Source: a virus | Reading direction: 5' to 3' (one strand) | DNA: 64,000 nt | IMG/VR virus record: IMGVR_UViG_3300047331_000009 | Coordinates: 1 to 64,000 of that record | Shown here: positions 1 to 63,696 of the stretch, in pieces | How positions within the stretch are numbered: position 1 is the first letter of the stretch | Layout of the letters: each line of letters begins with the position of its first letter | Made by a program: the position numbers and the translations under genes | The notes under the pieces: generated by a model | What the model saw: the letters and a program-made list of their open reading frames with translations, nothing else | Databases searched by the model: none | Told to the model about the DNA's origin: nothing

Positions 1-381
1 GAGATCATCATACGCCACGCGCATGATTGCATGGTGATGCACCGAGTCGAGAACGCCTTGCAGAAGCTCGCAGATATTGCTGTCGGGCAAGCGCAGCCGC
101 CGCAGCGAGGCTTCCACCTCCCGGATCGGCCGCTGGATGATCAGGGTTTGCGGCGCGAGCCGGTTCATGATCTCGGGCAGGTGAAAGCCCATGCCGTGAT
201 CGGACACGCCAAGATAGCGAAATCCGCTCATGTTCCACACCGTCGTGAACACGTCTTCCCATCGTTCGGCGCTGCGCAGCGGTTCATGCACGCAGATCGA
301 GACGTCATTCAGCGCTGCCGCCGCCATCCAGGCGGTTCGCGAGCGAGGCAGCCCGGTGATGAGAAACGGCTTTGACTTCAT
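1..381 (-). CDS. P-loop sulfotransferase-like protein, N-terminal 127 residues only
   Basis: The reading frame is open from an ATG that overlaps the preceding stop (ATGA) and continues past the left edge, so the C-terminus is not visible. The N-terminus MKSKPFLITGLPRSRTAW holds a GLPRSRTAW loop like the phosphosulfate-binding (5'-PSB) loop of sulfotransferases. Further on, IIQRPIREVEASLRRL resembles the 3'-phosphate-binding segment (R..P...V..SL). The family transfers sulfate from PAPS to hydroxyl groups; the substrate here is unknown. It is the last visible gene of the late operon, directly after a tail protein, so modification of a surface glycan or virion component is a reasonable inference. 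A kinase-like P-loop protein is the alternative. Confidence 0.75.
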   Translation of the reverse strand, partial: MKSKPFLITGLPRSRTAWMAAAALNDVSICVHEPLRSAERWEDVFTTVWNMSGFRYLGVSDHGMGFHLPEIMNRLAPQTLIIQRPIREVEASLRRLRLPDSNICELLQGVLDSVHHHAIMRVAYDDL

Positions 382-4387: not shown

Positions 4388-5113
4388 TTAGTAGTTTCGA
4401 TCCGAGCGGATGTTGTACGTGGACTGGCCGCGCGCGATGATTTCGGGCTCGTAAATCGACCGCTGGGTGCGGTTGTTGTTGCGCTTGACCGAACCGAGGC
4501 TTTCGGCGGCCCGTTTGATGATGATCGGATCAAGCTGGGCGGAGGTGAAATACGGTTTCAGTGCGACCGCCAGGTTGGTCTTGATCGCCAGATTGTAGCC
4601 GGGCGGCAGGGAGACGGCGGTGTAGATCGTCGGGAATTCCGCCAGTTGCAGATACGAGAAGAAGTAGACTTCGTAGACCTGCGACGGGGTTGGCCAGATG
4701 TTGACGATGCCCAAGGGGAATTGCGGGTCGTAGAACAGCGTGTCGGGCAGGTTCGAGTTCACCGCCGCCGTGGTGCGCAGGTTGTAGGTAAGCTGGTCGA
4801 CCACATCCATCGGGTATTTGTTGTTGTTCTGATCGAGGATGTAGGCGGATCCGGCGCTGTCCGAGACGCGCAGCGGGCGGACGTTGCTGATGGTTCCGCC
4901 CGGTCCGCATGTGTACTGGGTGACGTTGACCGCCAGCGCGAATGACTGTTGCAGCCATGCAAAGCAGGTCATCGCGTCGTTCGACCAGCTATCCAGCATG
5001 TCGTTCAGCACGATCAGCGAGCGGGAACTGTCGGCGGAACTGATCGCGTCGCCCGGCCCGTAGACGCCGAGCATTTCGAGACTGTCCTGGATCAGATCGA
5101 GGGCGGTGGTCAT
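4388..5113 (-). CDS. P22 gp4-like tail accessory / head-completion protein
   Basis: 241 residues. The N-terminus (TALDLIQDSLEMLGVYGPGD, then SRSLIVLNDMLDSWSND) is the helical signature of gp4-type head-completion factors, which dock on the portal ring and start tail assembly; P22 gp4 is about 165 residues. It ends with a basic helix and QSTYNIRSDRNY. It lies 15 bases upstream of the gp10-like gene, the same order as in P22-like phages, which supports the call. Confidence 0.85.
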   Translation of the reverse strand: MTTALDLIQDSLEMLGVYGPGDAISSADSSRSLIVLNDMLDSWSNDAMTCFAWLQQSFALAVNVTQYTCGPGGTISNVRPLRVSDSAGSAYILDQNNNKYPMDVVDQLTYNLRTTAAVNSNLPDTLFYDPQFPLGIVNIWPTPSQVYEVYFFSYLQLAEFPTIYTAVSLPPGYNLAIKTNLAVALKPYFTSAQLDPIIIKRAAESLGSVKRNNNRTQRSIYEPEIIARGQSTYNIRSDRNY

Positions 5114-7072: not shown

Positions 7073-8257
7073 TTAGTTGGTCAGCCGGGCGGCGAGTTCT
7101 GGATAAAACGTGCTGGTGCCGTACAGCACATCGATACGGCACGGAGTAACGTCGTTAAATATGTCGAAAGCCCGAACGATACGCATGCTGATTGCGCGAT
7201 ACATCTCACGTGCAGCGAAGTCCACGCCGCCCGGTAACTCCATGGGAACACACACTAACCCGAACGCATCGCGGGTAAACCCGATGTTCTGGAAATAGGT
7301 GGTTGATGCCGTTCCAAGAACGGTTATCGCAGCCGAGTTCGCCGGGGAGTTCGAAACGTTCTGATAGGCGCCGGTGGTGGTGATCGCGGGGCTGATGGCC
7401 AGGGTCGATGCGCCGCCGCCGGAAGACGAAGCGGTGGTGGTGACGACAAAGTTCATCAAGCTGCCGGTGGACTGGCGACTTTGCGGGTTGATCGCGAACA
7501 CCCCCGCGATGGTGAACACGTCGCCCACGTTCAGCAGGGTGGCGATGCTGTTCGACCAGCCCTGCGTGACCAGCGATGCCCCGGTCTGCCCAGCGCCGTT
7601 GACGGTCGGGGTGCCGGCATAGTTGCCGACGGTCTGGCTTTGGATGTTCTGGTCTTCGTAGATTTCGAAGTTGGCGATCGCGGCCAGGAAGCCTTTCAGT
7701 GCCGGTTCGGCAACCGAACGGGTGAACAGGTTGGACAGCCCGTTGGCGATCGACCAGTAGGCGGCGGGGTTGAGGATCAGCACGCGGCCGTCCTGCGGTG
7801 CGGCCTGCTCGTCAAGCCGCTGGCCGACGGCGGCGAGCGAGGCAAACGAGTTCGGCAGGGTGCCAGGCGTGCCAACCTCGCTGTAGATCGCGGTGAAGTT
7901 TTGCAGCACCGAGATATCGATCTGGTTGGCGATGGTGGCGGCGGCGGGCTTGCAATACCGCTCCGAGTATTCCTCGATGGTCAGCGTCAGTTCCTGGCTG
8001 CTGAACTGGAAGTCCACATGCGCCTGGGTGGAGACGGTGATCGAGGTTGACGGCTCGCTGATGTCCTGGATCTGCAAAGCCGGGCCAAGGGTGATCTTGA
8101 ACCGGTTCGGCTTGCGCACGGTCAGCGTGGTGCCGATCTTGACGAACTGGTTTTCGAACTGACGGTTGACCTTGCCGGCTGCGACAAGGTTGTTCTCCAG
8201 GATCACCAGTGTTTCCTTGGTGATCAGGGCCGGCGTGAGTAGGGCGTTTGAGGCCAC
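7073..8257 (-). CDS. Major capsid protein, P22 coat (gp5)-like
   Basis: 394 residues from a GTG start with AGGAG at a 7-base spacing. The opening SNALLTPALITKETLVILEN, then FVKIGTTLTVRKPNRF, STQAHVDFQFSSQELTLTIEE and YCKPAAATIANQID is the conserved N-terminus of P22-type coat proteins, which form the T=7 shell with a scaffold. The C-terminus (FDIFNDVTPCRIDVLYGTSTFYPELAARL) also fits. It follows the scaffold and one small gene, as expected, and ends just before a terminator hairpin. Confidence 0.92.
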   Translation of the reverse strand: MASNALLTPALITKETLVILENNLVAAGKVNRQFENQFVKIGTTLTVRKPNRFKITLGPALQIQDISEPSTSITVSTQAHVDFQFSSQELTLTIEEYSERYCKPAAATIANQIDISVLQNFTAIYSEVGTPGTLPNSFASLAAVGQRLDEQAAPQDGRVLILNPAAYWSIANGLSNLFTRSVAEPALKGFLAAIANFEIYEDQNIQSQTVGNYAGTPTVNGAGQTGASLVTQGWSNSIATLLNVGDVFTIAGVFAINPQSRQSTGSLMNFVVTTTASSSGGGASTLAISPAITTTGAYQNVSNSPANSAAITVLGTASTTYFQNIGFTRDAFGLVCVPMELPGGVDFAAREMYRAISMRIVRAFDIFNDVTPCRIDVLYGTSTFYPELAARLTN

Positions 8258-8348
8258 GGTAACACTCCTGCGCGCCCCGCACGCGGAGCGACTAGATGAT
8301 TGTTGTCATGCTGATGGGTTCCTGCCCGGACTGCGCTCCGGTGGCGGT

Positions 8349-8463
8349 CCCGGCTTATTCGCGCCGGTGCGGTTCAGTCTTCGGTGGTCAGTGGTCGGTG
8401 GTCAGGCTACCCGGCTGTCCGGCCGGTCGGGGTCTTTGGTCACCCGGCTGTCCGGCCGGTCGG
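8349..8463 (-). repeat. Intergenic repeats upstream of the coat gene
   Basis: Two kinds of repeat fill this 220-base gap before the coat gene. A 22-base unit (ACCCGGCTGTCCGGCCGGTC plus GG) occurs twice with a 33-base period (8409 and 8442). A diverged copy of the hairpin CCCGGC...CGCGCCGGTGCGG at 8349-8372 is also found, better preserved, upstream of two other minus-strand genes (19583 and 60543). No gene is evident. A leader or promoter function for coat transcription is plausible but not shown. Confidence 0.6.
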
Positions 8464-8480
8464 TCAGGCTTGCCGCAGGG

Positions 8481-8789
8481 TCAGAGATGCGTTGCCAAAT
8501 CGCCGATCAGGCTTTTGATAACCTCGTGGCCTTCGTTGACGGTGAAAATCGCCGACCGGAGTTCCGCCAGGATGCCCGCTGGCGGGCGCTCCGGCAGCGA
8601 TGTCACGTTGCGGTCGTCTTGCGGCGGGCTGCTGCCCCGCAGCTTGATCACCAGCGACGCCAGCGACGCGATGATTTCCGCCGTGTCTCGCGCACTGGCG
8701 GTGATGGTGTCGTGCAGACTTTCGAGGTCGGTCGCCGGACGCGAAGGTTTGTCTGCGGGCGTGGTGCCAAACGAGGATGCGGTGAGCAT
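8481..8789 (-). CDS. Hypothetical helical protein between scaffold and coat
   Basis: 102 residues, mostly helix-forming (LESLHDTITASARDTAEIIA, ILAELRSAIFTVNEGHEVI), with AAGGAAA before the ATG. No known domain. Its position between scaffold and coat suggests a head assembly helper such as a decoration or stability factor; this is context only. Confidence 0.65.
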   Translation of the reverse strand: MLTASSFGTTPADKPSRPATDLESLHDTITASARDTAEIIASLASLVIKLRGSSPPQDDRNVTSLPERPPAGILAELRSAIFTVNEGHEVIKSLIGDLATHL

Positions 8790-8803
8790 GCCGGTATTTC
8801 CTT

Positions 8804-9931
8804 TCAGTGCCGCGCCGCAACGCGCTCAGTGACGTTGAAGAACGGTTTGCGGCCGTTCATGATCTCGGGGTTACGCTTGGCCGCCCATTCATCCATCGAC
8901 GGCTCGCGTTCGGACGTATCGGCGGGTGCTGTGTTGCGCTCGATCGGCTCGATCGGCTTGGCGCGCGTCGCGCGCGGCTTCGGCGCCGATAGCTGTGCCG
9001 CCAGCTTGCAAACCTCGACCATCTGCAACACCGGGCTCGGCATCGCGGCAATCTTGGCACTCTCTTCGGGGTTCTGGCCCAGATACATCGCAACGTCAGT
9101 GCCGTTTTCGAGGCCCATCATCGCAGACGCCATCGGCATCGAGACGACATGATCGCCCTCGGCAACCTTCTCGTAATCGGGGTATTTCTCGATCGCCGCC
9201 GTACGCCGCGCGGTCCAGATCGCAGCTTGGCGCGCCGCTTCCGCTTCGGCGTCGGCCTTCGCCTTGGCCTGCGCTTCGGCTTCCTGCTTGGCGGCAACCT
9301 TGCGCACGCCCTCGCGTTCGGCCCATTCGGTCAGCGCGGTGTCATACGAATCGGGGTCATCGAACGCATCGCGGGTCGGGCGGGCATCGACAACCGGTTC
9401 GAGGGGCTTGGCTTGTTCGGGGGTCTTTTCCGCCGCCGCGCGCAACGCCGCGAGTTCCGCCCGCGCTGCCGCCGCAGCGTCCGTCGCGGCTTTGATGGCA
9501 GCGGCGGCTTCGGCAACCTGGGTGCGCGAGACCTTGCGTGCCTTCGATATCTCCCGCACCGCCCATGTCGGGGTGCCTGGGGGAAGATCCGAAACGTCAA
9601 CTTCATCGTCCTCGCCGGCGGCTTCAACTTTGACTTCCGGCTCAGTTGGTTCGGCCTTGGCGGTCTTGTCGGCTTTCGCCGGTTTTGCAGGCTTCTCAGT
9701 CGTTTCTGGGTCCGCACCGGCTTCCACCGATCGCGCCGCATCCGCTGCGGCCTTCTCCTGCAACGTCATTTCCGCCGGGATGCCGGCATCGTTGTCGTCG
9801 GCATGGTTGGATGCGGATACCGGTGGCTTTGCCACCTCGGCCAACGGGGAGTCGGACGTCGCCGACAGCGGCGGGGCTGTGCGAATGAGGATGTCAGGTG
9901 GGCGCGAAACGGCAATCGATGCCACGGGCAA
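8804..9931 (-). CDS. Scaffolding protein, P22-type
   Basis: 375 residues, highly charged and Ala/Glu/Lys-rich with long coiled-coil-forming stretches (about 125-260) and RPTRDAFDDPDSYDTALTEW in the middle, a motif common to phage scaffolds of this class. It is located immediately before the coat block. The start is TTG at 9931 or GTG at 9925; AGGAG sits 4 or 10 bases away. It would direct procapsid assembly and leave before or during packaging. Confidence 0.8.
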   Translation of the reverse strand: MPVASIAVSRPPDILIRTAPPLSATSDSPLAEVAKPPVSASNHADDNDAGIPAEMTLQEKAAADAARSVEAGADPETTEKPAKPAKADKTAKAEPTEPEVKVEAAGEDDEVDVSDLPPGTPTWAVREISKARKVSRTQVAEAAAAIKAATDAAAAARAELAALRAAAEKTPEQAKPLEPVVDARPTRDAFDDPDSYDTALTEWAEREGVRKVAAKQEAEAQAKAKADAEAEAARQAAIWTARRTAAIEKYPDYEKVAEGDHVVSMPMASAMMGLENGTDVAMYLGQNPEESAKIAAMPSPVLQMVEVCKLAAQLSAPKPRATRAKPIEPIERNTAPADTSEREPSMDEWAAKRNPEIMNGRKPFFNVTERVAARH

Positions 9932-10073
9932 ACGTCTCCTGGGGGTCGTCTAGGGCAGGCGGAGATGGTCACCCGGCACGTCACCAGCCGGTTGGTCAGG
10001 CACGTCGTTCGGTTTTTATTTGATATGATCGTGTGTCGTCAATCAGTTACCAACACACGCTGACACCGCGATG

Positions 10074-12857
10074 TCAAATCAGCGCCGAAAGCAGCATCAA
10101 AACATCAGCGTCATCGGCGATCAGGCGCATCATTTTCAGCGCATCCGCCTCCGCCTCAGCCGCGATCGTTGCCGCATCGTCGGCGCGAATGGCATCCAGC
10201 AACGTCGCTGCGATCTCGGCCGCAATCGCATCCGCCGCGAACGGGACAACCTCGATGACCGGCGGAACAACGAAGATGATCGCCTGTTCGGGCGGGATAT
10301 CGGCGATCGGTGCCGGCAGGTCGGGCACGTCGTCTTGCGGCAACAGACCGATTTCAATGCGCGACTGGCGCAGCCGCGCCGCTTCTTGCGCTGCCAGGTC
10401 AACGTTCGAGGTGTCCAGCAGCCGCCGATAACCGGGCGGCGGCTCAATGCACTGGTCATTCGCTCCGCCGAACACGACCTCTATTTCGCCGCGCTCGTCC
10501 GGGATTGCGGCGTCGGTGACAACCGCAGAAGCGGTTTCGTCAACCGATAGGCCGTCATTGACAACCGATGCCGTCCATTCGGCCGGGATCGATTGATCGA
10601 CCAGCACCGCAGATACAGAACTCGTCCACTCGTTTGGATCGTTCTGCGTGACCATCACGCCGGTCAGGCTTTCAACCGGCACGCCCCGATCGGTGGAGGC
10701 GGCGGCCTGTGCTTCTGCCGGTATCGCCGCATCGCCAGCGACCAAGCTGGACCACTCGATTGGACTTGAAGCGTAGGTTTGGACTGATCCAAGCCCTTCC
10801 GTTGGTTCGCTCGTGTCACGCTGCACACCGGCCAACGACTCGACCGGGCTGGCGCCGACGGCTTGCACGGATGGCATCGCCTCGGCCGGGCTTGCGCTGT
10901 CGGTATCGACCGAGATCAGGTCTTCATTTGCCGTGACGCTGTCGGTCGCCACCCCGGCCAGCGATTCCACCGGCGTCGCACCCGTCGCCGCCACCCATTG
11001 CAGCGCGTCAACCGGGCTCGTTGTGTCGGTGCTGACCGTGCCTGTGGTTTCGTCCGGCGCGCTGGCGTCGCTCTGCACGCCAACCAGCGATTCGACCGGG
11101 CTTGTGCCCTCGGTTTGCGCCGATTGCAGGCTTTCGGCCGGGCTTTTGCCGTCGCGACTAACCGAAACCATGGCCTCGGTCGGCGCCGATGCGTCGGTTT
11201 CAACCGTGCCGGTCCATTCCGTCGGCGCCGAGGCGTCGGTCTGGACCATGAGCGTCGAGCCAAGCCATTCCAGCGGAATGTTGGTATCGACCTGCACCGC
11301 CAGGACCGAACTTGTCCATTCCGTCGGCGGGGCTTCGTCGCCGATAACACCGGCCGCAGCCTCAACCGGCGCCGTGCCATCGGCGGCTACCGTGGCGGTC
11401 GTCTCCGCCGGGCTGGCGTTGTGGGTCTGCTCGTTGGCCTGCGATTCTGCCGTCGGGGCTTGATCGGTGGCGACGCCAACCAGCCGTTCTGTCGGTATCG
11501 CACCGGTGGTGGCGGTGGAGATCAACCACTCCGCCGGGATCGCCGTTGTGGTGACCGGCTGGCCGTGCCAGCGGTTGATAATCTTTTCGTCGATGCTGAC
11601 GTTGGCCGTCGTTTCCGCTGGGATTGCTGTATCGCCCGGCAGCGCGCCCAGCCACTCGTTGAGCGGCGGCGTCTCGGTGTGCACCGCCGAGGACGTCTCC
11701 GCCGGCACCGCCGCATCCGTGACGGGCTGGCCGTGCCAACGGTTGATGATCTTGTCGTCTATGCTGACATTGGCCGTCGTTTCCGCTGCGATCGCGGCAT
11801 CGGCGGTTGGAGATCCAAGCACGGCGTTCGGCGTCAGCGCGTCCGATTCCAGTGCCGATGCGTTTTCCGCCGGAATGGCGCTGGTGGTGGTGGGCTGCCC
11901 ATGCCAACGGTTGATGATCTTGTCGTCTATGCTGACGTTGGCGAGCGTTTCGTCGCGCGGGGCCGCGTCGGTTTGCAGCGATGCGACCGTTTCGGTCGGT
12001 GGCGTGGCGTCGGTGCGAACCAGATCAACCGAGGTTTGCAGCGGCACATTGGCGTCGGTTTCAACCGAAGCCGTCCATTCGGTCGGCATCGACTGGTCGA
12101 TCATCACGGTCGGGAACACGCCCAGCCATTCGATCGGGATCGAAGCGTCGATTTGCACCGGCAGCACGGTGCTCAACCATTCTGTCGGGCTGATCTCGGT
12201 GGTGATGACACCCGAGAGGCTTTCGTCTGGCAGAGTGCGGTCGCGGACAATGCCGCCCAGGTTTTCCACCGGAATGGCGCCGGTGGTGACTTCGTTGGCC
12301 GATGATTCTGCCGGCGTCAGGCCCACATTCGCGGTCGCGGCACTGCGTTCGGCCGGTATCTGGCTGTCCCTGGCGACGCCGCTGAGGTCTTCGACCGGCC
12401 CATTGGCGTCGGTGATGACGCCTTCCAACCGCTCGTTGGGGATCTGGCTGTCGCCGCGCGCACTGCCGAACCATTCGTCCGGGATGGCGGTGTCGCCGCG
12501 CGGGCTGCCGGACCGTTCGCTGGGCACATTGCCGTCGGTGCGCGAACCGGTGAAATTTTCCACCGGCAGGTTGCCGTCGGTGCGCAGCCCTTCAAGGTTT
12601 TCCAGCGGCACATTGGCATCGGCGCGCACACTGGCGAGGCTTTCCGCCGATATCAGCCCGGTGGTTTGCGGCGAACCGGAGATCGAGTCGGGACTGTTGG
12701 CGTCGGTGCGAACGCCAACCAGCGCCTCGTCGGGAACGGCAATGTCACGGCGCAGGCTTTCCAGCCACTCGGCGGGCGCAAAGCCGTCAATCTGCACCAG
12801 GAACTGTGTGCGCCCGGCGGCGTAGGCGGTGCTGGAATAGGCGGATGAGCCGTACAT
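10074..12857 (-). CDS. Giant 14-residue-repeat protein, probably virion-associated
   Basis: 927 residues. From about residue 25 to 789 it is made of about 54 tandem units of 14 residues with consensus L.GV.TDA..P.E. (for example LEGLRTDGNLPVEN, FGSARGDSQIPNER). A few units carry 3 extra residues (LSTVLPVQIDASIPIEW). Three copies of NVSIDDKIINRWHGQP recur exactly 168 bases (56 residues, four units) apart. The last 138 residues are unrelated and end in an Ala/Asp-rich helix. No Cys network or signal peptide is visible. It lies between the fibre and scaffold genes. I know no function; a repetitive fibre or spacer is the simplest guess. Confidence 0.85.
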   Translation of the reverse strand: MYGSSAYSSTAYAAGRTQFLVQIDGFAPAEWLESLRRDIAVPDEALVGVRTDANSPDSISGSPQTTGLISAESLASVRADANVPLENLEGLRTDGNLPVENFTGSRTDGNVPSERSGSPRGDTAIPDEWFGSARGDSQIPNERLEGVITDANGPVEDLSGVARDSQIPAERSAATANVGLTPAESSANEVTTGAIPVENLGGIVRDRTLPDESLSGVITTEISPTEWLSTVLPVQIDASIPIEWLGVFPTVMIDQSMPTEWTASVETDANVPLQTSVDLVRTDATPPTETVASLQTDAAPRDETLANVSIDDKIINRWHGQPTTTSAIPAENASALESDALTPNAVLGSPTADAAIAAETTANVSIDDKIINRWHGQPVTDAAVPAETSSAVHTETPPLNEWLGALPGDTAIPAETTANVSIDEKIINRWHGQPVTTTAIPAEWLISTATTGAIPTERLVGVATDQAPTAESQANEQTHNASPAETTATVAADGTAPVEAAAGVIGDEAPPTEWTSSVLAVQVDTNIPLEWLGSTLMVQTDASAPTEWTGTVETDASAPTEAMVSVSRDGKSPAESLQSAQTEGTSPVESLVGVQSDASAPDETTGTVSTDTTSPVDALQWVAATGATPVESLAGVATDSVTANEDLISVDTDSASPAEAMPSVQAVGASPVESLAGVQRDTSEPTEGLGSVQTYASSPIEWSSLVAGDAAIPAEAQAAASTDRGVPVESLTGVMVTQNDPNEWTSSVSAVLVDQSIPAEWTASVVNDGLSVDETASAVVTDAAIPDERGEIEVVFGGANDQCIEPPPGYRRLLDTSNVDLAAQEAARLRQSRIEIGLLPQDDVPDLPAPIADIPPEQAIIFVVPPVIEVVPFAADAIAAEIAATLLDAIRADDAATIAAEAEADALKMMRLIADDADVLMLLSALI

Positions 12858-48244: not shown

Positions 48245-48658
48245 ATGACCACGGATCTGGAAATGACCGCCATCAGCGCCGCCTATGCGGCGCTTGAAGG
48301 CATGACGACGGCGCAATGGCAGCGTGCGCTGAATTACCTAGGCGACCGTCTCGCCGGCGACGATCGCACCGCGTTCGTTGCCAGTCTCGGGCAGGCCCAC
48401 CCCGAACCCACGCAATGGGTGATCAGGGGGGATCTCGATATCCGCGAACCCACGCGCGAGGCGGCGGTGCTGGAAAGCATCGAAGAAGCCTGGACACCGA
48501 TCGAGGTCAACGGTGTCGCCATCGTCTCGCAGGAATGGGCGGTCATCACGCCCGACGACGACGGCCGCGAAGTCTACTGGTTCGCAAGGCGCGAACTGGC
48601 CGACCTTTTCATCACCGCCGCGATGCAGGACGGCATCAACACGGAGCACGCGCCATGA
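48245..48658 (+). CDS. Hypothetical protein
   Basis: 137 residues. Helical N-terminus (ALEGMTTAQWQRALNYLGDR) and a beta C-terminal half (VAIVSQEWAVITPDDDGREV, YWFARRELADLFITAAMQD). Directly precedes the YqaJ nuclease with ATGA overlap. No family recognised. Confidence 0.6.
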   Translation: MTTDLEMTAISAAYAALEGMTTAQWQRALNYLGDRLAGDDRTAFVASLGQAHPEPTQWVIRGDLDIREPTREAAVLESIEEAWTPIEVNGVAIVSQEWAVITPDDDGREVYWFARRELADLFITAAMQDGINTEHAP

Positions 48659-49632
48659 TCATTGCCGAGATCACCGAACACACCGCTGAATGGCACGCCG
48701 CGCGGCTGAAGAACATCGGCGGGTCCGAGATCGCCGGGCTGTTCGGCGTGCAGGCTGACTACGCCCCGTCCGCCTACACCCTGCATATGGTCAAATCCGG
48801 GCGCATCCCAGCCCCGCCGGTGGACGACAAACCGGGCTCGCGGGTCTGGTTCGGCATCAAGCTGGAACCCACCATCGCCGCCCTGGCGGCCGAACTGCAC
48901 GGCTGGAAACTGGCCAAGGGCGGTTATTGCCTCGATGACACGACACCGGGCATGGCGTGCTCGCTGGATTACCTGATCACCGAACCGGGGCCTGAAGAAA
49001 TCAAACTCGGCTTCGAGGGGCCGGGGGTGTTGCAGATCAAGAACATCGACGGCATCCAGTTTCGCCAGAAATGGACCGCCGACGAACCGCCGTTCCCGAT
49101 CCTCTTGCAGCTACAGCACGAAATCGCCTGTTCGGGCTGCACCTGGGGGGTCATCGTTGGCATGGTCGGCGGCAACGAATTGCCCGCCTACCGCTATGCC
49201 AAGCGCGAGAAGACCATCGCCCTGATCCGCAAGCGGGTCACCGAGTTCTGGGAGGGCGTGCGGGCCAAAAAAGCCCCGCTGGTGGATGGCACCGACAGCA
49301 CCGCCGCCGCCATCGCCGCCCTTTACCCGACGCTGGGTATCAAGCTGCCGCTCGATCTGACCACCGACAACGAACTGCCCGAAATATGCGCCGGGCTGAT
49401 CGTGGCGACGGCCGATCGCAAGGCCGCCGAGGCGAACGAAAACGAGTTCAAGAACCGGCTGACAGAGAAGCTGAAAGGCCACAAGAACGCGGTGGCCAGC
49501 GGCTACGCCATCAATGGCGTGTTCACCCCGGAAAACCCCGGCCAGCGCGCCGGCGACCTGCCGCCCAGCCAGATCATCGGCAAACGCGCGGAAAGCATCT
49601 GGTTCAAGGTGAAGGAGTTGGTCGGGGCATGA
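48655..49632 (+). CDS. YqaJ-type alkaline exonuclease
   Basis: 325 residues. EWHAARLKNIGGSEIAGLFG is the N-terminal motif of lambda-exonuclease/YqaJ proteins; GMACSLDYLITEP supplies the Asp and GVLQIKNIDGIQFRQKW the Lys of the catalytic centre. The usual Glu before .K is Gln, a variant I recall in some phage relatives. It would resect double-stranded ends 5'-3' for RecT, encoded 1 kb downstream. Confidence 0.85.
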   Translation: MIIAEITEHTAEWHAARLKNIGGSEIAGLFGVQADYAPSAYTLHMVKSGRIPAPPVDDKPGSRVWFGIKLEPTIAALAAELHGWKLAKGGYCLDDTTPGMACSLDYLITEPGPEEIKLGFEGPGVLQIKNIDGIQFRQKWTADEPPFPILLQLQHEIACSGCTWGVIVGMVGGNELPAYRYAKREKTIALIRKRVTEFWEGVRAKKAPLVDGTDSTAAAIAALYPTLGIKLPLDLTTDNELPEICAGLIVATADRKAAEANENEFKNRLTEKLKGHKNAVASGYAINGVFTPENPGQRAGDLPPSQIIGKRAESIWFKVKELVGA

Positions 49633-50264: not shown

Positions 50265-50671
50265 TGCACAAGCCGGGCCGGCCATGTCCCTACTGCCAGG
50301 GCGAGGTCACGTTCATGGCCAACAGCGCACCGATCTACAACGGGCGCAATTTCGGTCCGATCCACATCTGCCACCCCTGCCGCGCCTGGGTCGGCTGCCA
50401 TCCCAACACCTATAACCCGCTGGGACGGCTCGCCGATGCGACCTTGCGCAAGGCCAAGAGCAACGCCCACCGCGCCTTTGATCCGCTCTGGCAGGCCATA
50501 CAGGTCCGCGACGGCATTTCCAAAGGCGAGGCCCGCGCAAGAGCCTACCGATGGCTGGCGCAGCAACTCGGCATCGATCCCCCGGCCTGCCATATCGGCA
50601 TGTTCGATGTCGAACTCTGCCGCCGGGTCGTGAGTGTGTGTGAACCCTACAAACAGAAAGACGTAGCATGA
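50261..50671 (+). CDS. Zinc-finger DUF3268-type protein
   Basis: 136 residues. RPCPYCQGEVTFMANSAPIY, NFGPIHICHPCRAWVGCHPN, PLGRLADATLRKAKSNAHRA and FDPLW match the DUF3268 pattern, a small zinc-binding protein found in phage recombination operons. Two CxxC pairs hold the metal. Function unknown. Confidence 0.75.
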   Translation: MMHKPGRPCPYCQGEVTFMANSAPIYNGRNFGPIHICHPCRAWVGCHPNTYNPLGRLADATLRKAKSNAHRAFDPLWQAIQVRDGISKGEARARAYRWLAQQLGIDPPACHIGMFDVELCRRVVSVCEPYKQKDVA

Positions 50672-52083
50672 GCGGCGCACCTGACTGGTCGGACATCCCC
50701 CCGCCCGAGGATACCGGAAGAGGCCCCTCCGGCGGGCGCAGCAAGCGCAGCGGTCCGCCGCCGATGACCGAAGAGCAGTTGAAAGCCGCGAGTGCGGATT
50801 TCTTCGAGTGGCTGGCCGCACCCGAGACGCACGTGCAACTGAAAATGCTGCTCCCCGATCATGTCGACGCCGACGTGTTCATCGCCACCGCCAAGAGTGC
50901 GGTGCTGACCAAGCCGCAGTTGCTGCGCGAGGACTTCCGCCCCTCGCTGATGATCGGGCTGATGAAAGCCGCCGCCCAGGGGCTGCTGCCGGACGGCAAG
51001 CAAGGTGTCCTGGTGCCGCGCTACGACAGCGACTCCCGCACGACCGTCATCGCGTGGCAGCCGATGATCTGGGGTGTGGTCAAACTCGGCCGCGAAACCG
51101 GCGCCATCCGCGAAATCCGCGCCATGCTGGTGTTCTACGGCGAACCGTTCCGCATCATTCAGGGCGATCAGAACATCATCGAGCACGAGGTTGATCTCGA
51201 CATCGTCGATGCCGCCTACGCCGCGCTCAACGCCGGGCGCGACGCCAACGGCAATCCGCTGTCGAGGCCGCTGGATTTCATCGCCCATGTGCGCGCCGCC
51301 TACTGCCTGATCACCGGCATGGACGGCACCATCACCAAACGCTGGATGACCCGCCAGCGCCTGATCAGCCTGTGGGAAAGCACCAGGGCCGAGAAAGGCC
51401 CGTGGTCGGGCCGCTGGGTGGATGAAATGTTCCTCAAGGGGATGATCCTGTTCACCGCCAAATGGATCAACCTCGATCCCAACAGTATCGCCGCCAAGCG
51501 CTTCCAGGCGGCGATGCTGACCGATCTGAACATCGATTTCGACCGCGACGACAACATCGTGCCGCTCGCCGCCGAACCGGCGGCACTGCCGGCCCCTGGC
51601 GACCGGCTGACCGCGTTCGAGGACGGGCTGATGAACCTCAAACCCACCAAGGCCCCCGTCGAAACCCAACCGCACTCCGCGCGCCATCCCGGCACGGCCA
51701 AGGCCAAGCCCACCGACGTGCCAGCCAGGGAAGTCAAGCCGGAGACCAAGCCAGCCGCCGCCAAGCCCGCCAGGACGGCCAAGGCCGCGCCAGCGGAGGA
51801 CAAGCCCATCCCGTTCATCGAACGCGCCGCAACCGCCCTGCTGATCGATGGCGGGGTGGGTTTTAAGTGGATGCGAACGCTGGAATTCGCGTTGCGCGAT
51901 TGCCCCAGCATGGATGATCTTGCCGCCCTGAAAGCGGTGCCCTCGGTGGTGCGCAACAGCAAGGCGGCACCGGCCGCCGTGAAGACCGAGATTGCCCTGC
52001 TGTTCCGCAACGCGGCCGAACGGCTCAGTAACTTTCACAACCAGGACGGATGGCCCATGGACGAAACAGGACAGGCAGCGTGA
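50668..52083 (+). CDS. recT: RecT-family single-strand annealing protein
   Basis: 471 residues. MLIGLMKAAAQGLLPDGKQG, followed by VLVPRYDS, QPMIWGVVKLGRETGAIREI, RAMLVFYGE and ITKRWMTRQRLISLWES fits the RecT core (residues about 60-290). A long Pro/Ala/Lys-rich tail (about 310-400) and helical C-terminus make it longer than E. coli RecT (269). With YqaJ and the DnaQ-like exonuclease it forms a recombination unit. The symbol denotes the family. Confidence 0.85.
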   Translation: MSGAPDWSDIPPPEDTGRGPSGGRSKRSGPPPMTEEQLKAASADFFEWLAAPETHVQLKMLLPDHVDADVFIATAKSAVLTKPQLLREDFRPSLMIGLMKAAAQGLLPDGKQGVLVPRYDSDSRTTVIAWQPMIWGVVKLGRETGAIREIRAMLVFYGEPFRIIQGDQNIIEHEVDLDIVDAAYAALNAGRDANGNPLSRPLDFIAHVRAAYCLITGMDGTITKRWMTRQRLISLWESTRAEKGPWSGRWVDEMFLKGMILFTAKWINLDPNSIAAKRFQAAMLTDLNIDFDRDDNIVPLAAEPAALPAPGDRLTAFEDGLMNLKPTKAPVETQPHSARHPGTAKAKPTDVPAREVKPETKPAAAKPARTAKAAPAEDKPIPFIERAATALLIDGGVGFKWMRTLEFALRDCPSMDDLAALKAVPSVVRNSKAAPAAVKTEIALLFRNAAERLSNFHNQDGWPMDETGQAA

Positions 52084-53992: not shown

Positions 53993-54322
53993 ATGACCGA
54001 TCCCCGCTGGCTCGACGCTGGCGCCGCCGCTGATTATCTTTCGATCAGGGTTGACGCCTTCCTGCGCGCGGTGCGCGATGGCCGGATACCCCAGCCATCA
54101 CATCATCTTGGTGAACGCACTGCGCGTTGGGATCGAACCCAATTAGATGCAACGATGAGTGGGGGGACAGCTTCTACCGACGCAAGGACCGCATTTGATG
54201 CCCTGGCAGAAAAAATCAAAGAAGAAGGCCGCAAGGGTCGTTCGTTACACGCTAAAGGACGGCACCCAGGTAGAAAGAACATACGCACCCTACACCCCAA
54301 AGCCGCAACCGCGTCCACGTGA
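53993..54322 (+). CDS. Excisionase-like HTH protein
   Basis: 109 residues. MTDPRWLDAGAAADYLSIRV, then DAFLRAVRDGRIPQPSHHLG and RTARWDRTQLDATM is the MerR/AlpA-type winged helix used by excisionases. The C-terminal half is basic and low-complexity. It overlaps the integrase gene by 125 bases in another frame, more than usual; ending earlier is not possible because there is no stop. It would direct excision and perhaps control int. Confidence 0.7.
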   Translation: MTDPRWLDAGAAADYLSIRVDAFLRAVRDGRIPQPSHHLGERTARWDRTQLDATMSGGTASTDARTAFDALAEKIKEEGRKGRSLHAKGRHPGRKNIRTLHPKAATAST

Positions 54323-55184
54323 CACGCTTACGGCCTTGATCGACGCCTACAAGGACTCCCCGGAATTCCGGGGAATGGCGCAATCGACCAAAACAACCTA
54401 TTCGATCTACTTGCGCCCGCTGGATATCGTCGGGCAGGTGGCGCCGGGCGAGGTGAAGCGGCGCAATATCCTCACCACGCGGGATGTCATCGCCAGCGAA
54501 CGCGGCAATGCCGCCGCCAACTATTTTGTCACGGTTGCGCGGCAGTTGTTCAATTGGGCAATCGATCGCGAGTGGGTCGAGATCAATCCGGCCGCCAAGA
54601 TCAAGAAGCTGGAAACCGGCCACCTGACGGCCTGGACGCAGGAACAGGCCAACACCGCGCTGGCCGGTCTGCCGGAGCACCTGCGCCGAGTTGTCGTCCT
54701 GGGTATGCACACCGGGCAACGCCGTGGCGATTTGTGCAGCATGACATGGGCCGCCTATGACGGCGAGCGGATCCGCCTGCGCCAGCAAAAGACCGGCGCG
54801 GTTTTGGTGCTGCCGGTGCATCCCGACCTGAAGGCGGAACTCGACGCCTGGAAGCCAACCGCCACCGCCATGACGATGCTGACCAACGCGGATGGGAGAC
54901 CGTGGCTGCCCAACAACCTGTCCTATCACATGCCGGCGGCGCTGGCCCGGCTGGGGTTGCCTGACGATTTAAACGTGCACGGGTTGCGTAAACTGGCGGC
55001 TGCCAACCTCGCGGATGCGGGCTGCTCGACCAAGCAAATCATGGCGGTCACCGGGCATCGGACGCTTGCGATGGTCGAATTGTATACTCGCAGTGCTGAT
55101 CAGGAGGCTTTGGCATCGGCGGCAATCTATCGCTTGCGCAACATACAAAATTCTACAAAATACAAAAACCGGACCAAAAACTAG
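54198..55184 (+). CDS. int: Tyrosine integrase
   Basis: 328 residues from MPWQKKSKKKAARVVRYTLK. An N-terminal arm-binding-type basic segment and SAM-like core domain (about 35-130) precede the catalytic domain. Catalytic residues are visible as R in MHTGQRRGDLCSMTW, H..R in HGLRKLAAANLADAG, H in VTGHRTLAMVELYTR and the Tyr nucleophile in the same stretch. It integrates and excises the phage genome. The start overlaps the xis-like gene. Confidence 0.92.
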   Translation: MPWQKKSKKKAARVVRYTLKDGTQVERTYAPYTPKPQPRPRDTLTALIDAYKDSPEFRGMAQSTKTTYSIYLRPLDIVGQVAPGEVKRRNILTTRDVIASERGNAAANYFVTVARQLFNWAIDREWVEINPAAKIKKLETGHLTAWTQEQANTALAGLPEHLRRVVVLGMHTGQRRGDLCSMTWAAYDGERIRLRQQKTGAVLVLPVHPDLKAELDAWKPTATAMTMLTNADGRPWLPNNLSYHMPAALARLGLPDDLNVHGLRKLAAANLADAGCSTKQIMAVTGHRTLAMVELYTRSADQEALASAAIYRLRNIQNSTKYKNRTKN

Positions 55185-58949: not shown

Positions 58950-59551
58950 GTCTCTTTGGTTTCGGGTGTGTGACCGTTTTCCGCAACCGGCCAAACCGGA
59001 TGCACCTTTGAGGCCAGGATCGACAGCACCAGATCGCGGCAGGCTTCCGCCCTGGCATCCCAGCCGCGTTCGAAATACCGCGCGGCAAGCCTTGTGGCGT
59101 AGAACTCTTCGCGCCGCGAACACAGCAGCCGCGACAGCGCCGGTTGATCCTGCGCCCGCGCCGCCGCGATGGTCAGCGGTCCGATGGCGCGGTCCTGTGC
59201 GACGCCGATCAACGCTTGCAGGAAGAGTGCGGCGTGCCCTGGCCCGCAGTTCACCGCCGCATCGAACACCTGGATGCCGATAGGCCCTAGCGCATCGCAG
59301 TTGCAGGCGTTCCAGAACATCGTGCGGTAGAGCGGCAGCAGGTCGGGCCTCAACACCCGCTTGAAACCGGCCATCGAAACCGGATCGCCATGCAGTTCCC
59401 GCCAACTCGCCCAGGTGTCGTATGTCACCCCCCAGCTTGTCGCCCCGCCGGGATCGGATGTGGTGATGTGATACGGCTGTCCGTCATTCTCCGGCAGCCA
59501 GATGAAATCCATTGCCTCGCTGAAAAGGTCCGCTGTTTGGGCTGCGGTCAT
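58946..59551 (-). CDS. Endolysin, GH108/N-acetylmuramidase-like
   Basis: 201 residues. FSEAMDFIWLPENDGQPYHI, then TTSDPGGATSWGVTYDTWAS, WRELHGDP, FKRVLRPDLLPLYRTMFWNA and GIQVFDAAVNCGPGHAALFL follow the GH108 lysozyme layout, whose second domain (QALIGVAQDRAIGPLTIAAA) resembles the peptidoglycan-binding part. The usual catalytic EGG is E-N-D-G here. No signal peptide. It cuts peptidoglycan at lysis. Confidence 0.8.
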   Translation of the reverse strand: MTAAQTADLFSEAMDFIWLPENDGQPYHITTSDPGGATSWGVTYDTWASWRELHGDPVSMAGFKRVLRPDLLPLYRTMFWNACNCDALGPIGIQVFDAAVNCGPGHAALFLQALIGVAQDRAIGPLTIAAARAQDQPALSRLLCSRREEFYATRLAARYFERGWDARAEACRDLVLSILASKVHPVWPVAENGHTPETKET

Positions 59552-60492
59552 TATGAGGACGTTCCTGTGAAGATGATCCAGTTATCCACTTCGGTCGGCG
59601 GCATGTTCTGCGAACTGCCGGTCAACGTCGAGGTGACGGTGGTAACCGCTGTTGCGGTAATCCCGGTCGTCGCCGTGCCTGTCGTGGTGGCCAACTGGAT
59701 GGTGCCGGCGCCGAAGTTGTTGACGGCTGATCCCGAACCGCTGACTTGGTTCCAGACATTCGGCAAGCTGTGCTGATGGCCGGCATCGCCGATGCTGACG
59801 GTGGTTGACGCGGTCAGCGTATCGGTCTGCGCAAGCTGGTTACCGCCCGCCTGGCCCACCGTGGTGGCCAGGATGCCCGATACCGCCTGGGTCACCCGGT
59901 TGGCGGCGGATCCGCCCATGTTGTCGGCGCCGATGCTCATGCGGCCGCGCTTGTCGGGCACGTTGAAGGTGGTCGATCCGTCGCCGGTACCGTAGGCGGT
60001 GCCCAGCACGGCGAACAGCAGCGCATAGGTGGTGCGCGACACCGCCTGCCCGTAGCAAAGCAGCCAGCCGGTCGGTGCGGTGGCACCGCCATAGGCGATC
60101 ATCGTGCCGATCGGGTTGCCGCCCAGGGTGGCTTGATACTCGGTCAGCGCCGCCAGGATGGCCGATTGCGGCGAAACCAGATTGTCGATGGTCCAGAACG
60201 GATTGGTCGGCGGGTCGGTATCGTTGGCCGGCGCCAGCACCAGCTTGTAAGCCAGCGTCGGGTCGAGCCACAGCCCGCATGACGTGCCGGTGGCCGACGG
60301 TGCCACCTCGCCCCGGACATTCAGCACGATCGGGTCCGGCAGCGCGGTCGCACCGGATGCGTCGGTAAAGGCCGCCTGCTTGGTGGTGGTGCCGGCGGCG
60401 TAGACGAAGAGTTGGCCGCCCACCAGCAGCACGCCGTTGTTGTCGGTGTATTGCTGGACCGGCTGCGGGGCGAGGATCATCGTGTTGGTCAC
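59551..60492 (-). CDS. Tail collar-domain fibre protein
   Basis: 313 residues from GTG with GGAGG 9 bases upstream; a longer form adds 26 residues that look like non-coding sequence. The N-terminus (MILAPQPVQQYTDNNGVLLV, GGQLFVYAAGTTTKQAAFTD) is the phage fibre attachment type. Residues about 140-190 (GWLLCYGQAVSRTTYALLFA, VLGTAYGTGDGSTTFNVPDK, RGR) are the collar (PF07484) domain. The C-terminus is Thr/Ser-rich beta repeat. TAATG overlap with the endolysin. Confidence 0.85.
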   Translation of the reverse strand: MTNTMILAPQPVQQYTDNNGVLLVGGQLFVYAAGTTTKQAAFTDASGATALPDPIVLNVRGEVAPSATGTSCGLWLDPTLAYKLVLAPANDTDPPTNPFWTIDNLVSPQSAILAALTEYQATLGGNPIGTMIAYGGATAPTGWLLCYGQAVSRTTYALLFAVLGTAYGTGDGSTTFNVPDKRGRMSIGADNMGGSAANRVTQAVSGILATTVGQAGGNQLAQTDTLTASTTVSIGDAGHQHSLPNVWNQVSGSGSAVNNFGAGTIQLATTTGTATTGITATAVTTVTSTLTGSSQNMPPTEVDNWIIFTGTSS

Positions 60493-60567: not shown

Positions 60568-60609
60568 CAAGACGTTCTAGCCGATTATCCGCCGCGTCGC
60601 CATGCAGGC

Positions 60610-62367
60610 TTACTTGCCGTCGATTTGCGCCCACAGGATCACCACCGGGAACTGGTCGGCGGCGGTCAGTTCGAATATCCGGTCGGACTGGCTGTAGCGC
60701 CGGGTCGAACCAAGGCGGTTGAACTTCACCACCTGCGCGGTCTTGCCGTTGGGGCCGACGGGCTGGATGCGCTGGTCACTCCATGTTGAACCGCCGTCGT
60801 CGGACCAACGCAGCATCACATGCGGCTGGGTGCCTTCTGGCACGTCGATGCCGGTCTGCATGGCGATTTGCAGGGCGGCGAATCGGTCAGCCTCGGACGT
60901 TGCGTTGGCCAACGCCCGCCAGCGCCGCAGCCAGCGCCGCGCCGTGCCGTTGTCGGTCAAGGTCTTGACGTTGAAGGCGTACAGGTTGCCCGAGGCGTAA
61001 TCGCCCAGCACGCCCTCGCCACCCGAACCGGGATTGGCAGTCACCACGGTCTGTGCGGAGGCGTTGGGCGCTGATCCGCCCGCCGTCAGTGTCCCGCCGG
61101 TGATGCCGAACGGACCGCCGCGCCCGGCATTGGTCCCGAAAGAGGATGGCGTGCCGTTCGAGGTCAGAAACACCGGCGGCTGTGTGCCGAACGGGCTTGA
61201 ACCATCGCTGCCGAGTTGCTGCGCGCCGCCGTCATAGGCGATGAACTTGCGCCGGTTGGCCATAACCGTCAGGTCGACGAACGCTGCGGTGTTGGAAAAC
61301 CAGAGATCCGCCACGACCGCTTCGCCGGTGCTGCCGCCCGAGACGGAAATCAGCGGTTGCGTCGGCGATCCGGTGTCGGAACGGCTGAAATAGACTGTGC
61401 CATTGGCCGCGATGAACACGCCGACATCGAAGAAGGTAAAGGCTGTCCAGGTTGCCGGGTTGCCGATGATGGTGCTGGCGCCGGATGATCCGCCGGTGAA
61501 GGTGTAGAACCAGTATTTCGTGCCGTCCGGGGACAGCAGGATCAGCCCGCCGGTGACCAGAAACCCCCAGCCCAGCGGCCCGACATAGGGCAGGGTGACG
61601 AAGGCGGCGGCGAACAGCGCGTTGTGGCCCGAATTGCTGAGGGTGATCTTGTTGTAGCTGGCCGCTGCGGCGTTGGTGCTGCTGACCGTGACGATCGAGG
61701 GCACGCCGTCGCCGGCGAGCCCGTCCTGCATGAAGTAATTGAAGCCGCCGCCGGTGTCGGGATAGCAGGCCGGGGTCCGCTGGGTCTGGCTGGTGTCGGC
61801 GCCAGGCCAGACGGTTGCAATCGAGGTGGTGCCATCGGCATGCCCCAGCACCGCGTTGCCCGCCCCGGTGGCGCCGAATTCCAGCGCCTGAAGCATGTAG
61901 GACACGCCCTGCCATTTGATCGGATAGCTGCACTGGCCCACACCGCTCCATGACGGGATCGATGTCGCGGTCATGCTCTGTGCGGCATAGGTGCCTGCGG
62001 TGTAGCTGCCGATGAAGCTGTAGCCGGTATTGCCCGCCAGGAAATTGGTGGCCGAGGTCAGCGTGGTGACGCCGTTCCACTGCGCCCAGTTGCCGCCCGA
62101 CCACGCGGCATTGATGTTCGAGGTGGTCACCGCCGCGCCGATATCGATCGTGGTATAGCCGGTCGGGGTCAGCAGCCACGTTTGCAGCCCGTCCACGGCG
62201 GTGCCGGTATTGCTGAAATACACACCCGAGGTGGCAATCGGCTCATCGGCGATCCAGGCAAGGCCAGGAATCACGCCCGACTGCACCGGCAGGGTGTAGG
62301 GTAGCAGGTTCAGCGTCAGGTTGACCGTGCCCTGGTATTGCGCCGTGACGGCGCCATAGGTCGGCAT
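60610..62367 (-). CDS. Tail protein with a second copy of the gp10-type C-terminal module
   Basis: 585 residues from MPTYGAVTAQYQGTVNLTLN. Residues about 1-345 are Gly/Thr/Ser-rich beta, unlike the HAF protein, and contain no recognisable domain (FQFVDL boundary near 350). The last about 235 residues (FVDLTVMANRRKFIAYDGGA, SSFGTNAGRGGPFGITGGTL, LGDYASGNLYAFNVKTLTDN, VMLRWSDDGGSTWSD) closely match the HAF protein, including the WSDDGG motif, with shared DNA identity visible over long stretches. Probable alternative tail tip or receptor-contact protein. Confidence 0.8.
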   Translation of the reverse strand: MPTYGAVTAQYQGTVNLTLNLLPYTLPVQSGVIPGLAWIADEPIATSGVYFSNTGTAVDGLQTWLLTPTGYTTIDIGAAVTTSNINAAWSGGNWAQWNGVTTLTSATNFLAGNTGYSFIGSYTAGTYAAQSMTATSIPSWSGVGQCSYPIKWQGVSYMLQALEFGATGAGNAVLGHADGTTSIATVWPGADTSQTQRTPACYPDTGGGFNYFMQDGLAGDGVPSIVTVSSTNAAAASYNKITLSNSGHNALFAAAFVTLPYVGPLGWGFLVTGGLILLSPDGTKYWFYTFTGGSSGASTIIGNPATWTAFTFFDVGVFIAANGTVYFSRSDTGSPTQPLISVSGGSTGEAVVADLWFSNTAAFVDLTVMANRRKFIAYDGGAQQLGSDGSSPFGTQPPVFLTSNGTPSSFGTNAGRGGPFGITGGTLTAGGSAPNASAQTVVTANPGSGGEGVLGDYASGNLYAFNVKTLTDNGTARRWLRRWRALANATSEADRFAALQIAMQTGIDVPEGTQPHVMLRWSDDGGSTWSDQRIQPVGPNGKTAQVVKFNRLGSTRRYSQSDRIFELTAADQFPVVILWAQIDGK

Positions 62368-62370
62368 CGC

Positions 62371-63696
62371 CTAAGCCTGCATGTCCAGCGCGTAGCCGTA
62401 TTTGTGCAGCTCGCGGATCTTCTCGATCACCTTGTCGCCGATGTCGGTGCGGTACATCCGGTTGGGGAAATGGATCTGATCCACGGTGCCATAGACCTTC
62501 TGTTGCGCCCGGCCGATGGTCTTGCCCAGCGCGGTCGCCACCAGCACGTATTCGCCGGCGGTCTGATAGGTCGGGCGGTCGACCACCTTGCCGTCCTCCA
62601 TCACCGGGCCTTTGCCCATCATCACCTCGACCAGATGGATATTGGCCAGCGCCTCGCCCGCACCTCGGATCGGCACGCCCTCGACCTCGGCGGCGGCGGC
62701 CTTGTCGTAAGGGTAGCAGGGTTGTGCCATGACCACGCCGATGGCGACGTCGTTGGACACGCGCAAGCTATCCTTGCCGATGAGCAAATCGGCCATCCAC
62801 TGTGCCGGGTCGCCCCGGTGCGAGGCCGCCTGTATCCACCATGCCGGATAGCCGCACCTGGCAGTGACTTCGAGGAAATGCGCCTCGCCTTTCTGGTCGA
62901 TGATCGCGCCGATGGCGAAATCCCCCCGGTGGCCCAGGGTGCGCAGGATCGGTTCCAGCGGCAGCAGCATCTGTTCGGCCAGCTTGTCCTTGTCGGTGTA
63001 CTGGCAGACCGAACCCTGCTCGCCCGTGGCCGGGCCGAGTTCTTCGTTCATCAGGTTCTTGTGCTCAAAGCAGATTTGCCAGCGGCCGGGCAGAAACCCT
63101 TCCGGCCCCATCCAGCCCGAGACGCCGATTTCGCCGATGCGTTCGATTTTTTCCTGTAACATCGCCTTGCCCTTCAGCACCTTGCCGAGTGCGATCTGGC
63201 GGCGCAGCCAGCCCACCATGTCGGCGGGGTCTTTGCCCACATAGGTCAGCGATTTGTCTTCCTCGTCGCCCATCGGCTTGAACACCCAGGCGCGGTCGGA
63301 CTTGCGGGCAAAGGCTTCGGCGTCGGCGAGGCTGTCGAAGGTCTGGAACGCCGGCACCTCGACGCCGATCGAGGCCATCGCCTCCATCCCGGCGGAGCGG
63401 ACGATTTCGAGGCGGGCGGAGGCGACGGTCGGGGCGAAGATCCGATAGCCGAAATCGGCGCGGTAGCGGTCCATCTCCCACAGATAGCGGTTGTTGGCCG
63501 TCACGAAGATCAGCCCGTCCTTGGCCCATGCCATATGCTGCTTGTAATCGTCCACCAGGGCGATACCCGGAAAGCCCTCGGCGTATTTCGTGGGTTTTTT
63601 CGAGTAGCGGAACATGCGGACGTCATGGCCAGCGGCCACGCATCGCATGGCGAAGTCCAGGCCGACGTGATCGGTGTCGATTACGAGTACCCGGAT
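62371..63696 (-). CDS. PurD-like ATP-grasp protein
   Basis: 441 residues if read from an ATC start. From the first ATG (63648) it is 425, but the 16 upstream residues IRVLVIDTDHVGLDFA complete the Rossmann-like first strand and helix expected for this fold; AGGAGG lies 5 bases before the ATC and a TGA stop is 6 codons upstream of it. Other signs of a phosphoribosylamine-glycine ligase-like ATP-grasp: RAWVFKPMGDEEDKSLTYVG, FLEVTARCGYPAWWIQAA, and the end YRTDIGDKVIEKIRELHKYG. Family members ligate a carboxylate to an amine; the substrate here is unknown, and no other purine gene is nearby. Confidence 0.8.
   Translation of the reverse strand: MRVLVIDTDHVGLDFAMRCVAAGHDVRMFRYSKKPTKYAEGFPGIALVDDYKQHMAWAKDGLIFVTANNRYLWEMDRYRADFGYRIFAPTVASARLEIVRSAGMEAMASIGVEVPAFQTFDSLADAEAFARKSDRAWVFKPMGDEEDKSLTYVGKDPADMVGWLRRQIALGKVLKGKAMLQEKIERIGEIGVSGWMGPEGFLPGRWQICFEHKNLMNEELGPATGEQGSVCQYTDKDKLAEQMLLPLEPILRTLGHRGDFAIGAIIDQKGEAHFLEVTARCGYPAWWIQAASHRGDPAQWMADLLIGKDSLRVSNDVAIGVVMAQPCYPYDKAAAAEVEGVPIRGAGEALANIHLVEVMMGKGPVMEDGKVVDRPTYQTAGEYVLVATALGKTIGRAQQKVYGTVDQIHFPNRMYRTDIGDKVIEKIRELHKYGYALDMQA

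Follow-up and report, generated by a model that had tools for sequence, protein, structure and literature searches.

The C-terminal platform of the T7 nozzle protein gp12 touches the adaptor, and the fibers dock between its propeller and this platform (PMC6702177). Nozzle proteins of SU10 and T7 carry extra domains inserted between propeller blades, in loops of the hub (PMC9509320, PMC6702177), and hub-type tail proteins of other phages bind a receptor or alter host range (PMC7241545, PMC10904470). Paralogs in this region have also been described: PhiGT1 and Bcep22-like podoviruses encode two adjacent copies of the tubeA adaptor, for which either two rings or a single heteromeric ring has been proposed (PMC10386132). 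In the literature searched, with most subscription papers outside the search, we found no report of a split hub of the gp10/gp12 type. Here, we analyze a window of 64,000 nucleotides (positions 1 to 64000 of an 88,432-bp IMG/VR record, designated G000) in which two genes, A and B, share a C-terminal module that proved to be part of such a hub.

Results

Gene A (378 to 2042, minus strand; 554 amino acids [aa]) and gene B (60610 to 62367, minus strand; 585 aa) had been put forward in a preliminary description, which placed the ORFs correctly, as paralogous at their C termini in both protein and DNA. Our alignments bear this out. The last 235 residues are identical at 160 positions (68%; BLASTP, 0 gaps, E = 1 × 10−93), so that the similarity extends far beyond the WSDDGG motif, and the underlying DNA is identical at 416 of 583 nucleotides (71%; BLASTN, E = 3 × 10−78; longest exact run, 19 nucleotides [nt]). 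A repeat finder independently returned pairs of 155 and 114 nt at 77% identity, both with an offset of 60,232. The N termini (319 residues in A, 350 in B) are unrelated, as had been claimed (hhalign probability 0.2).

Profile searches indicated what the shared module is. PHROG 578 (head closure Hc3, the P22 gp10 family) matched the gene upstream of A, here called gp10N (2039 to 4372, minus strand; 777 aa), up to profile position 345 only (E = 3.7 × 10−53), whereas A was matched only at positions 336 to 469 (E = 1.4 × 10−13) and B only at 342 to 467 (E = 3.2 × 10−14). BLASTP against five annotated phage hubs gave the same complementary division between gp10N and the C-chains. Therefore, the C terminus of A is the missing end of the hub whose N-terminal two thirds are encoded by gp10N, and B carries a second copy of that end. 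By homology, the last 134 residues of the module (381 to 782 in A and 60613 to 61014 in B, minus strand) are the C-terminal third of a P22 gp10-type hub, namely, the last propeller strands and the platform. The "common docking module" of the preliminary description is thus shared by A and B; it is not a peripheral or free-standing docking tag, being the C-terminal third of the hub itself, set apart from the N-terminal two thirds, together with half of an inserted domain. A P22 gp10-type hub is a single chain; in this genome and six further ones it is encoded by two ORFs. B on its own is a C-terminal hub fragment and was not classed as a hub.

Gene order agrees for gp10N, which directly follows an adaptor-like gene in the gp4 position (4388 to 5113, minus strand; 241 aa; PHROG 12985, with a weak match to head-tail adaptor Ad3, E = 0.021), with portal and coat genes upstream. 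B departs from this order, lying between the purD-like gene g94 and a fiber gene. At the junction of gp10N and A, stop and start codons overlap as ATGA (2039 to 2042, minus strand). The N-terminal domain of A (residues 1 to 319; 1086 to 2042, minus strand) consists of HAF repeats (NCBIfam TIGR02913, 39.5 bits against a cutoff of 22.65). A near-identical contig (L010) has a 9-bp in-frame deletion in this HAF part, which represents variation within the population. A second family-specific insertion of ∼250 aa, with repeated glycine-rich beta motifs, occupies residues 120 to 370 (approximate) of gp10N and is also found in an unsplit relative (L024); T7 and SU10 have insertions at the nozzle tip to which it may correspond.

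Compared to ordinary hubs, the extra sequence comprises the 167 residues that end gp10N (residues 611 to 777; 2042 to 2542, minus strand) and the approximately 100 residues that start the C-chain module (783 to 1085 in A and 61015 to 61317 in B, minus strand; for B, the profile of the joined halves matched from the cut onwards with E = 3 × 10−42). When joined, the two halves gave one continuous alignment, running through the cut, with a domain that another split relative, L020, carries uninterrupted in its C-chain (hhalign; 203 columns, 30% identity, probability 97.4, E = 1.2 × 10−11), indicating that the split runs through one domain with its halves on two chains. Neither the halves nor the joined domain matched Pfam or PHROGs, and tblastn of the joined domain found no match in annotated phages. 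By eye, the domain looks lectin-like (LamG/ConA).

The position of the cut in the fold, like the propeller-plus-platform fold itself, was read from a model of unsplit L024 (741 aa), in which the two hub parts are joined by a short linker, and not from the split pair. This model is of moderate confidence (mean pLDDT 67.8; 22-row alignment). Its best match was P22 gp10 (8eap; Z = 28.5, root mean square deviation [RMSD] 6.3, 426 residues aligned), compared to Z of about 20 for unrelated propellers, whose matches stop near residues 615 to 635. The cut corresponds to a low-confidence loop (residues about 594 to 607), after which the model predicts the last two propeller strands (608 to 612 and 617 to 621) and then the C-terminal strands (651 to 740). 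Since these strands and the platform follow the cut, and given the layout of T7 gp12 (PMC6702177), gp10N alone should lack both propeller closure and platform.

To place the split among relatives, IMG/VR and GTDB genomes were scanned and the loci classified; a few contigs begin inside the hub gene. Wherever both hub parts were recovered from a relative outside one clade, they formed a single ORF, and the two hubs from GTDB genomes are both unsplit. The split occurs in seven distinct genomes (G000/L010, L011, L015, L016, L017 to L019, L020 and L021, and L022). Those placed in the tree fall in one strongly supported clade (100/100) that also includes L024; an AU test did not resolve whether the split genomes form a clade without it (P = 0.128). 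The spacer of the L024 hub (8210 to 10435) is 22 aa long, compared to about 12 in most other unsplit hubs, and resembles the linker of the split form. Such hints in the sequence make a secondary loss of both domain and split possible in L024.

What stands at the cut differs from genome to genome. HAF repeats are fused to the C-chain in G000, other HAF-matching sequence in L022, sequence with only a subthreshold PQQ-propeller match in L017, and, in L020, both a full-length copy of the split domain and a bacterial Ig/cadherin-like domain. A separate 343-aa gene is found there in L015; L016 has a 531-aa fiber-like gene followed by a minimal C-chain of 236 aa, and in L011 a new gene starts where the contig ends. 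Apart from the short HAF similarity, these N-terminal domains are mutually unrelated, so the module does carry interchangeable N termini across relatives, as the comparison of A and B had suggested. gp10N is 76 to 77% identical among G000, L011, and L015 while the sequence that follows is unrelated, which argues for exchange at the gene boundary. The C-chain of L016, with no extra domain, indicates that a displayed domain is not always needed. The ATGA overlap recurs in L017, L020, and L022, making four genomes with G000. A programmed −1 frameshift joining gp10N and A was rejected, since the overlaps of L010, L017, L020, and L022 contain no slippery heptamer and, in L011, L015, and L016, the cut holds a gap or an entire gene.

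The N-terminal domain of B (residues 1 to 350; 61318 to 62367, minus strand) is an orphan: it had no match in Pfam, PHROGs, NCBIfam (including TIGR02913), or annotated phages, only chance-level matches in the PDB, and none in IMG/VR by peptide patterns. Its AlphaFold model was unusable (mean pLDDT 40.5). A second C-chain was found only in G000, also when compared to records of 86 to 88 kb, and B is known from this one metagenomic record; in the other complete-sized relatives, one C-chain suffices. B is flanked by g94 upstream (62371 to 63615, minus strand; ATP-grasp) and the tail collar fiber gene g92 downstream (59551 to 60492, minus strand; Pfam Collar, E = 3 × 10−23). In relatives G005 and G007, these two neighbors directly adjoin, an empty site from which we conclude that B was inserted. 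g94 itself scored 70.6 bits against NCBIfam purD, far below the cutoff of 288, and lies beside the collar fiber gene across the clade at 62 to 85% identity.

In the tree, A and B are sisters (95/88), with a longer branch for B (0.43 versus 0.22). Duplication, the origin that the preliminary description proposed, is therefore favored and would have occurred within this lineage. However, dS between A and B is about 1, the same as for orthologs from separate phages in the clade, so B could equally well have been captured from a close relative. Purifying selection acts on B: its dN/dS is 0.29 to 0.35, and 9 of 100 otherwise invariant columns are changed, compared to 2 to 13 in other members. No clear ribosome-binding site precedes B, which lies 26 kb from gp10N and may be expressed at a low level.

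A genome-wide repeat check found a perfect 12-nt inverted repeat bracketing B, with one arm at 60601 to 60612 (CATGCAGGCTTA, plus strand) and the other at the g94 end at 62372 to 62383 (TAAGCCTGCATG, plus strand). The 12-mer has just these two copies in the genome and none with one mismatch, and inverted repeats flanking other genes never exceed 8 nt. The g94-end arm is ancestral, since the same 12-mer ends the g94 ortholog of G005, which does not have B. The repeat may be a footprint of the insertion. A designed inversion switch is unlikely, because inversion would turn the g94 stop codon TAG into TAC; the genes scanned include only one tyrosine recombinase (54198 to 55184).

A and B had been described as lying 59 kb apart at opposite ends of the window. 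This distance is an effect of where the linear record was cut. The record ends share an exact 127-bp repeat, and L010, an independent contig 99.9% identical to the record, reads across their join; the genome thus maps as an 88,305-bp circle, and the argument from distance fails. On the circle, the shorter path between A and B is ∼26 kb, and both genes lie on one strand within a single run of late genes. Its order is portal, coat, adaptor-like gene, gp10N, A, a sulfotransferase-like gene, fiber-like genes, ejection-type proteins (one of 4685 aa), g94, B, collar fiber, and endolysin, with several of these roles assigned by position or by eye. The 4685-aa protein is a single ORF in the ejection-protein region of the record (67823 to 81880; L003/L004). 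Tandem and dispersed repeats (units of 168, 51, and 42 nt; 11023 to 12552) lie within a 927-aa late gene (10074 to 12857). The tyrosine recombinase (Phage_integrase), a YqaJ-type exonuclease (48655 to 49632), and a RecT-like annealing protein (50668 to 52083) suggest that the phage is probably temperate, with its own recombination pair.

Discussion

The reading that we favor, at a probability of roughly 0.6, is that this clade of short-tailed phages (about 86 to 88 kb) builds a P22 gp10-type tail hub from two chains with exchangeable fronts, with A as the resident C-chain and B as an extra one competing for gp10N. In this scheme, gp10N would account for the first half of the inserted domain and the bulk of the beta-propeller; the C-chain (gp10C) would complete both, adding the remaining domain half and the last propeller strands, and would also bring the platform, so that a complete hub subunit would need both chains to meet. 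gp10C would dock on gp10N in trans, via the split domain and closure of the propeller, and anything fused to its front would be displayed from the hub-surface loop that holds the cut. Because relatives carry different N-terminal domains there, the cut appears to work as an exchange point for display domains, which are probably surface binding. The receptor-binding role of these front domains is suggested by their position and variability only. The ATGA overlap suggests that A is probably translationally coupled to gp10N and made in step with it. B, with its orphan domain, is an acquisition of this lineage, placed between g94 and the collar fiber gene; made at the other end of the late gene run, it would most likely compete with A for the same site on gp10N. 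The predicted outcome is hubs, or a mixed hub population, with two kinds of head, the N-terminal domain of B being a putative binding head by analogy. The "alternative tail tips" of the preliminary description would thus be alternative subunits of one tail hub. A broader version, to which we give a little less than even odds, is that the hub works by fragment complementation, such that any C-chain bearing the module could be plugged in and two C-chains would yield mosaic or alternative hubs with two binding heads.

The strongest competitor, which we regard as unlikely though worth weighing, holds that virions lack B, a C-chain that was duplicated or captured and persists as a relic or passenger. 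The longer branch of B, the lack of a second C-chain in the other 86- to 88-kb relatives, and the lack of a clear ribosome-binding site speak for this. However, B has stayed open over 585 codons at a dN/dS of 0.29 to 0.35, and its changes at invariant columns fall within the range of working orthologs. It is improbable in our view that B works away from the virion, for example as a free decoy, or serves as an accessory part of the tail, for example by capping another tail protein, with the module providing a binding surface. Its place beside the collar fiber and endolysin genes, away from gp10N, would fit such a role, whereas B has kept its hub part and half domain in full, at ordinary constraint, as expected if it still pairs with gp10N.

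We find it slightly harder still to credit that B is a silent cassette, supplying A with another N-terminal domain through recombination in the shared module. Such a mechanism could draw on 0.7 kb of common DNA and on the RecT-like and YqaJ-type genes; however, homology lies on only one side of the N-terminal domain, making a clean swap impossible by homology alone, identity is 71% with no exact run above 19 nt, and B has its own start codon. Finally, although these are metagenome assemblies and B comes from one record, an assembly or sequencing error is scarcely credible for the second copy, as B is flanked by proper neighbors on both sides, and error or chimerism is rejected for the split, which is present in seven distinct genomes with different sequences at the cut and recurs as gp10N-A in the independent contig that differs by the 9-bp deletion.

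Short-tailed phages conserve the hub, or nozzle, which is a single chain in relatives recovered outside the clade. If the two-chain hub with exchangeable fronts holds, the split clade would offer a route to changed surface recognition outside fibers and spikes. Having two C-chains in one genome allows a test of whether a single virion can bear a heterogeneous hub, and the split-domain junction could serve as a natural two-part assembly tag. What is new here is that a conserved structural protein is divided, that its second part carries exchangeable domains, and that this part is present twice in one genome.

Among known systems, the hub described here is most like that of P22 gp10, Sf6, and Pam1 in sequence family, in its place after an adaptor-like gene, and in its propeller-plus-platform fold, with a more distant likeness to the T7 gp12 nozzle. 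Unlike the P22 gp10, Sf6, and Pam1 hubs, which are one chain, it is divided into two within an inserted domain; its second chain bears a variable domain and exists in two versions. Insertions in the SU10 and T7 nozzles remain within one polypeptide, whereas here the site of insertion now separates two genes. Tail fibers and spikes also combine a constant docking part with a variable partner part and exchange at the boundary between them; however, their anchor is usually N-terminal and attached to the hub, while the constant part here is C-terminal and belongs to the hub. Like PhiGT1 and the Bcep22-like podoviruses, this phage has two paralogs of a hub-region protein. In those phages, the paralogs are complete, adjacent adaptors; here, they carry the C-terminal third of the hub (tubeB) and are distant in the genome.
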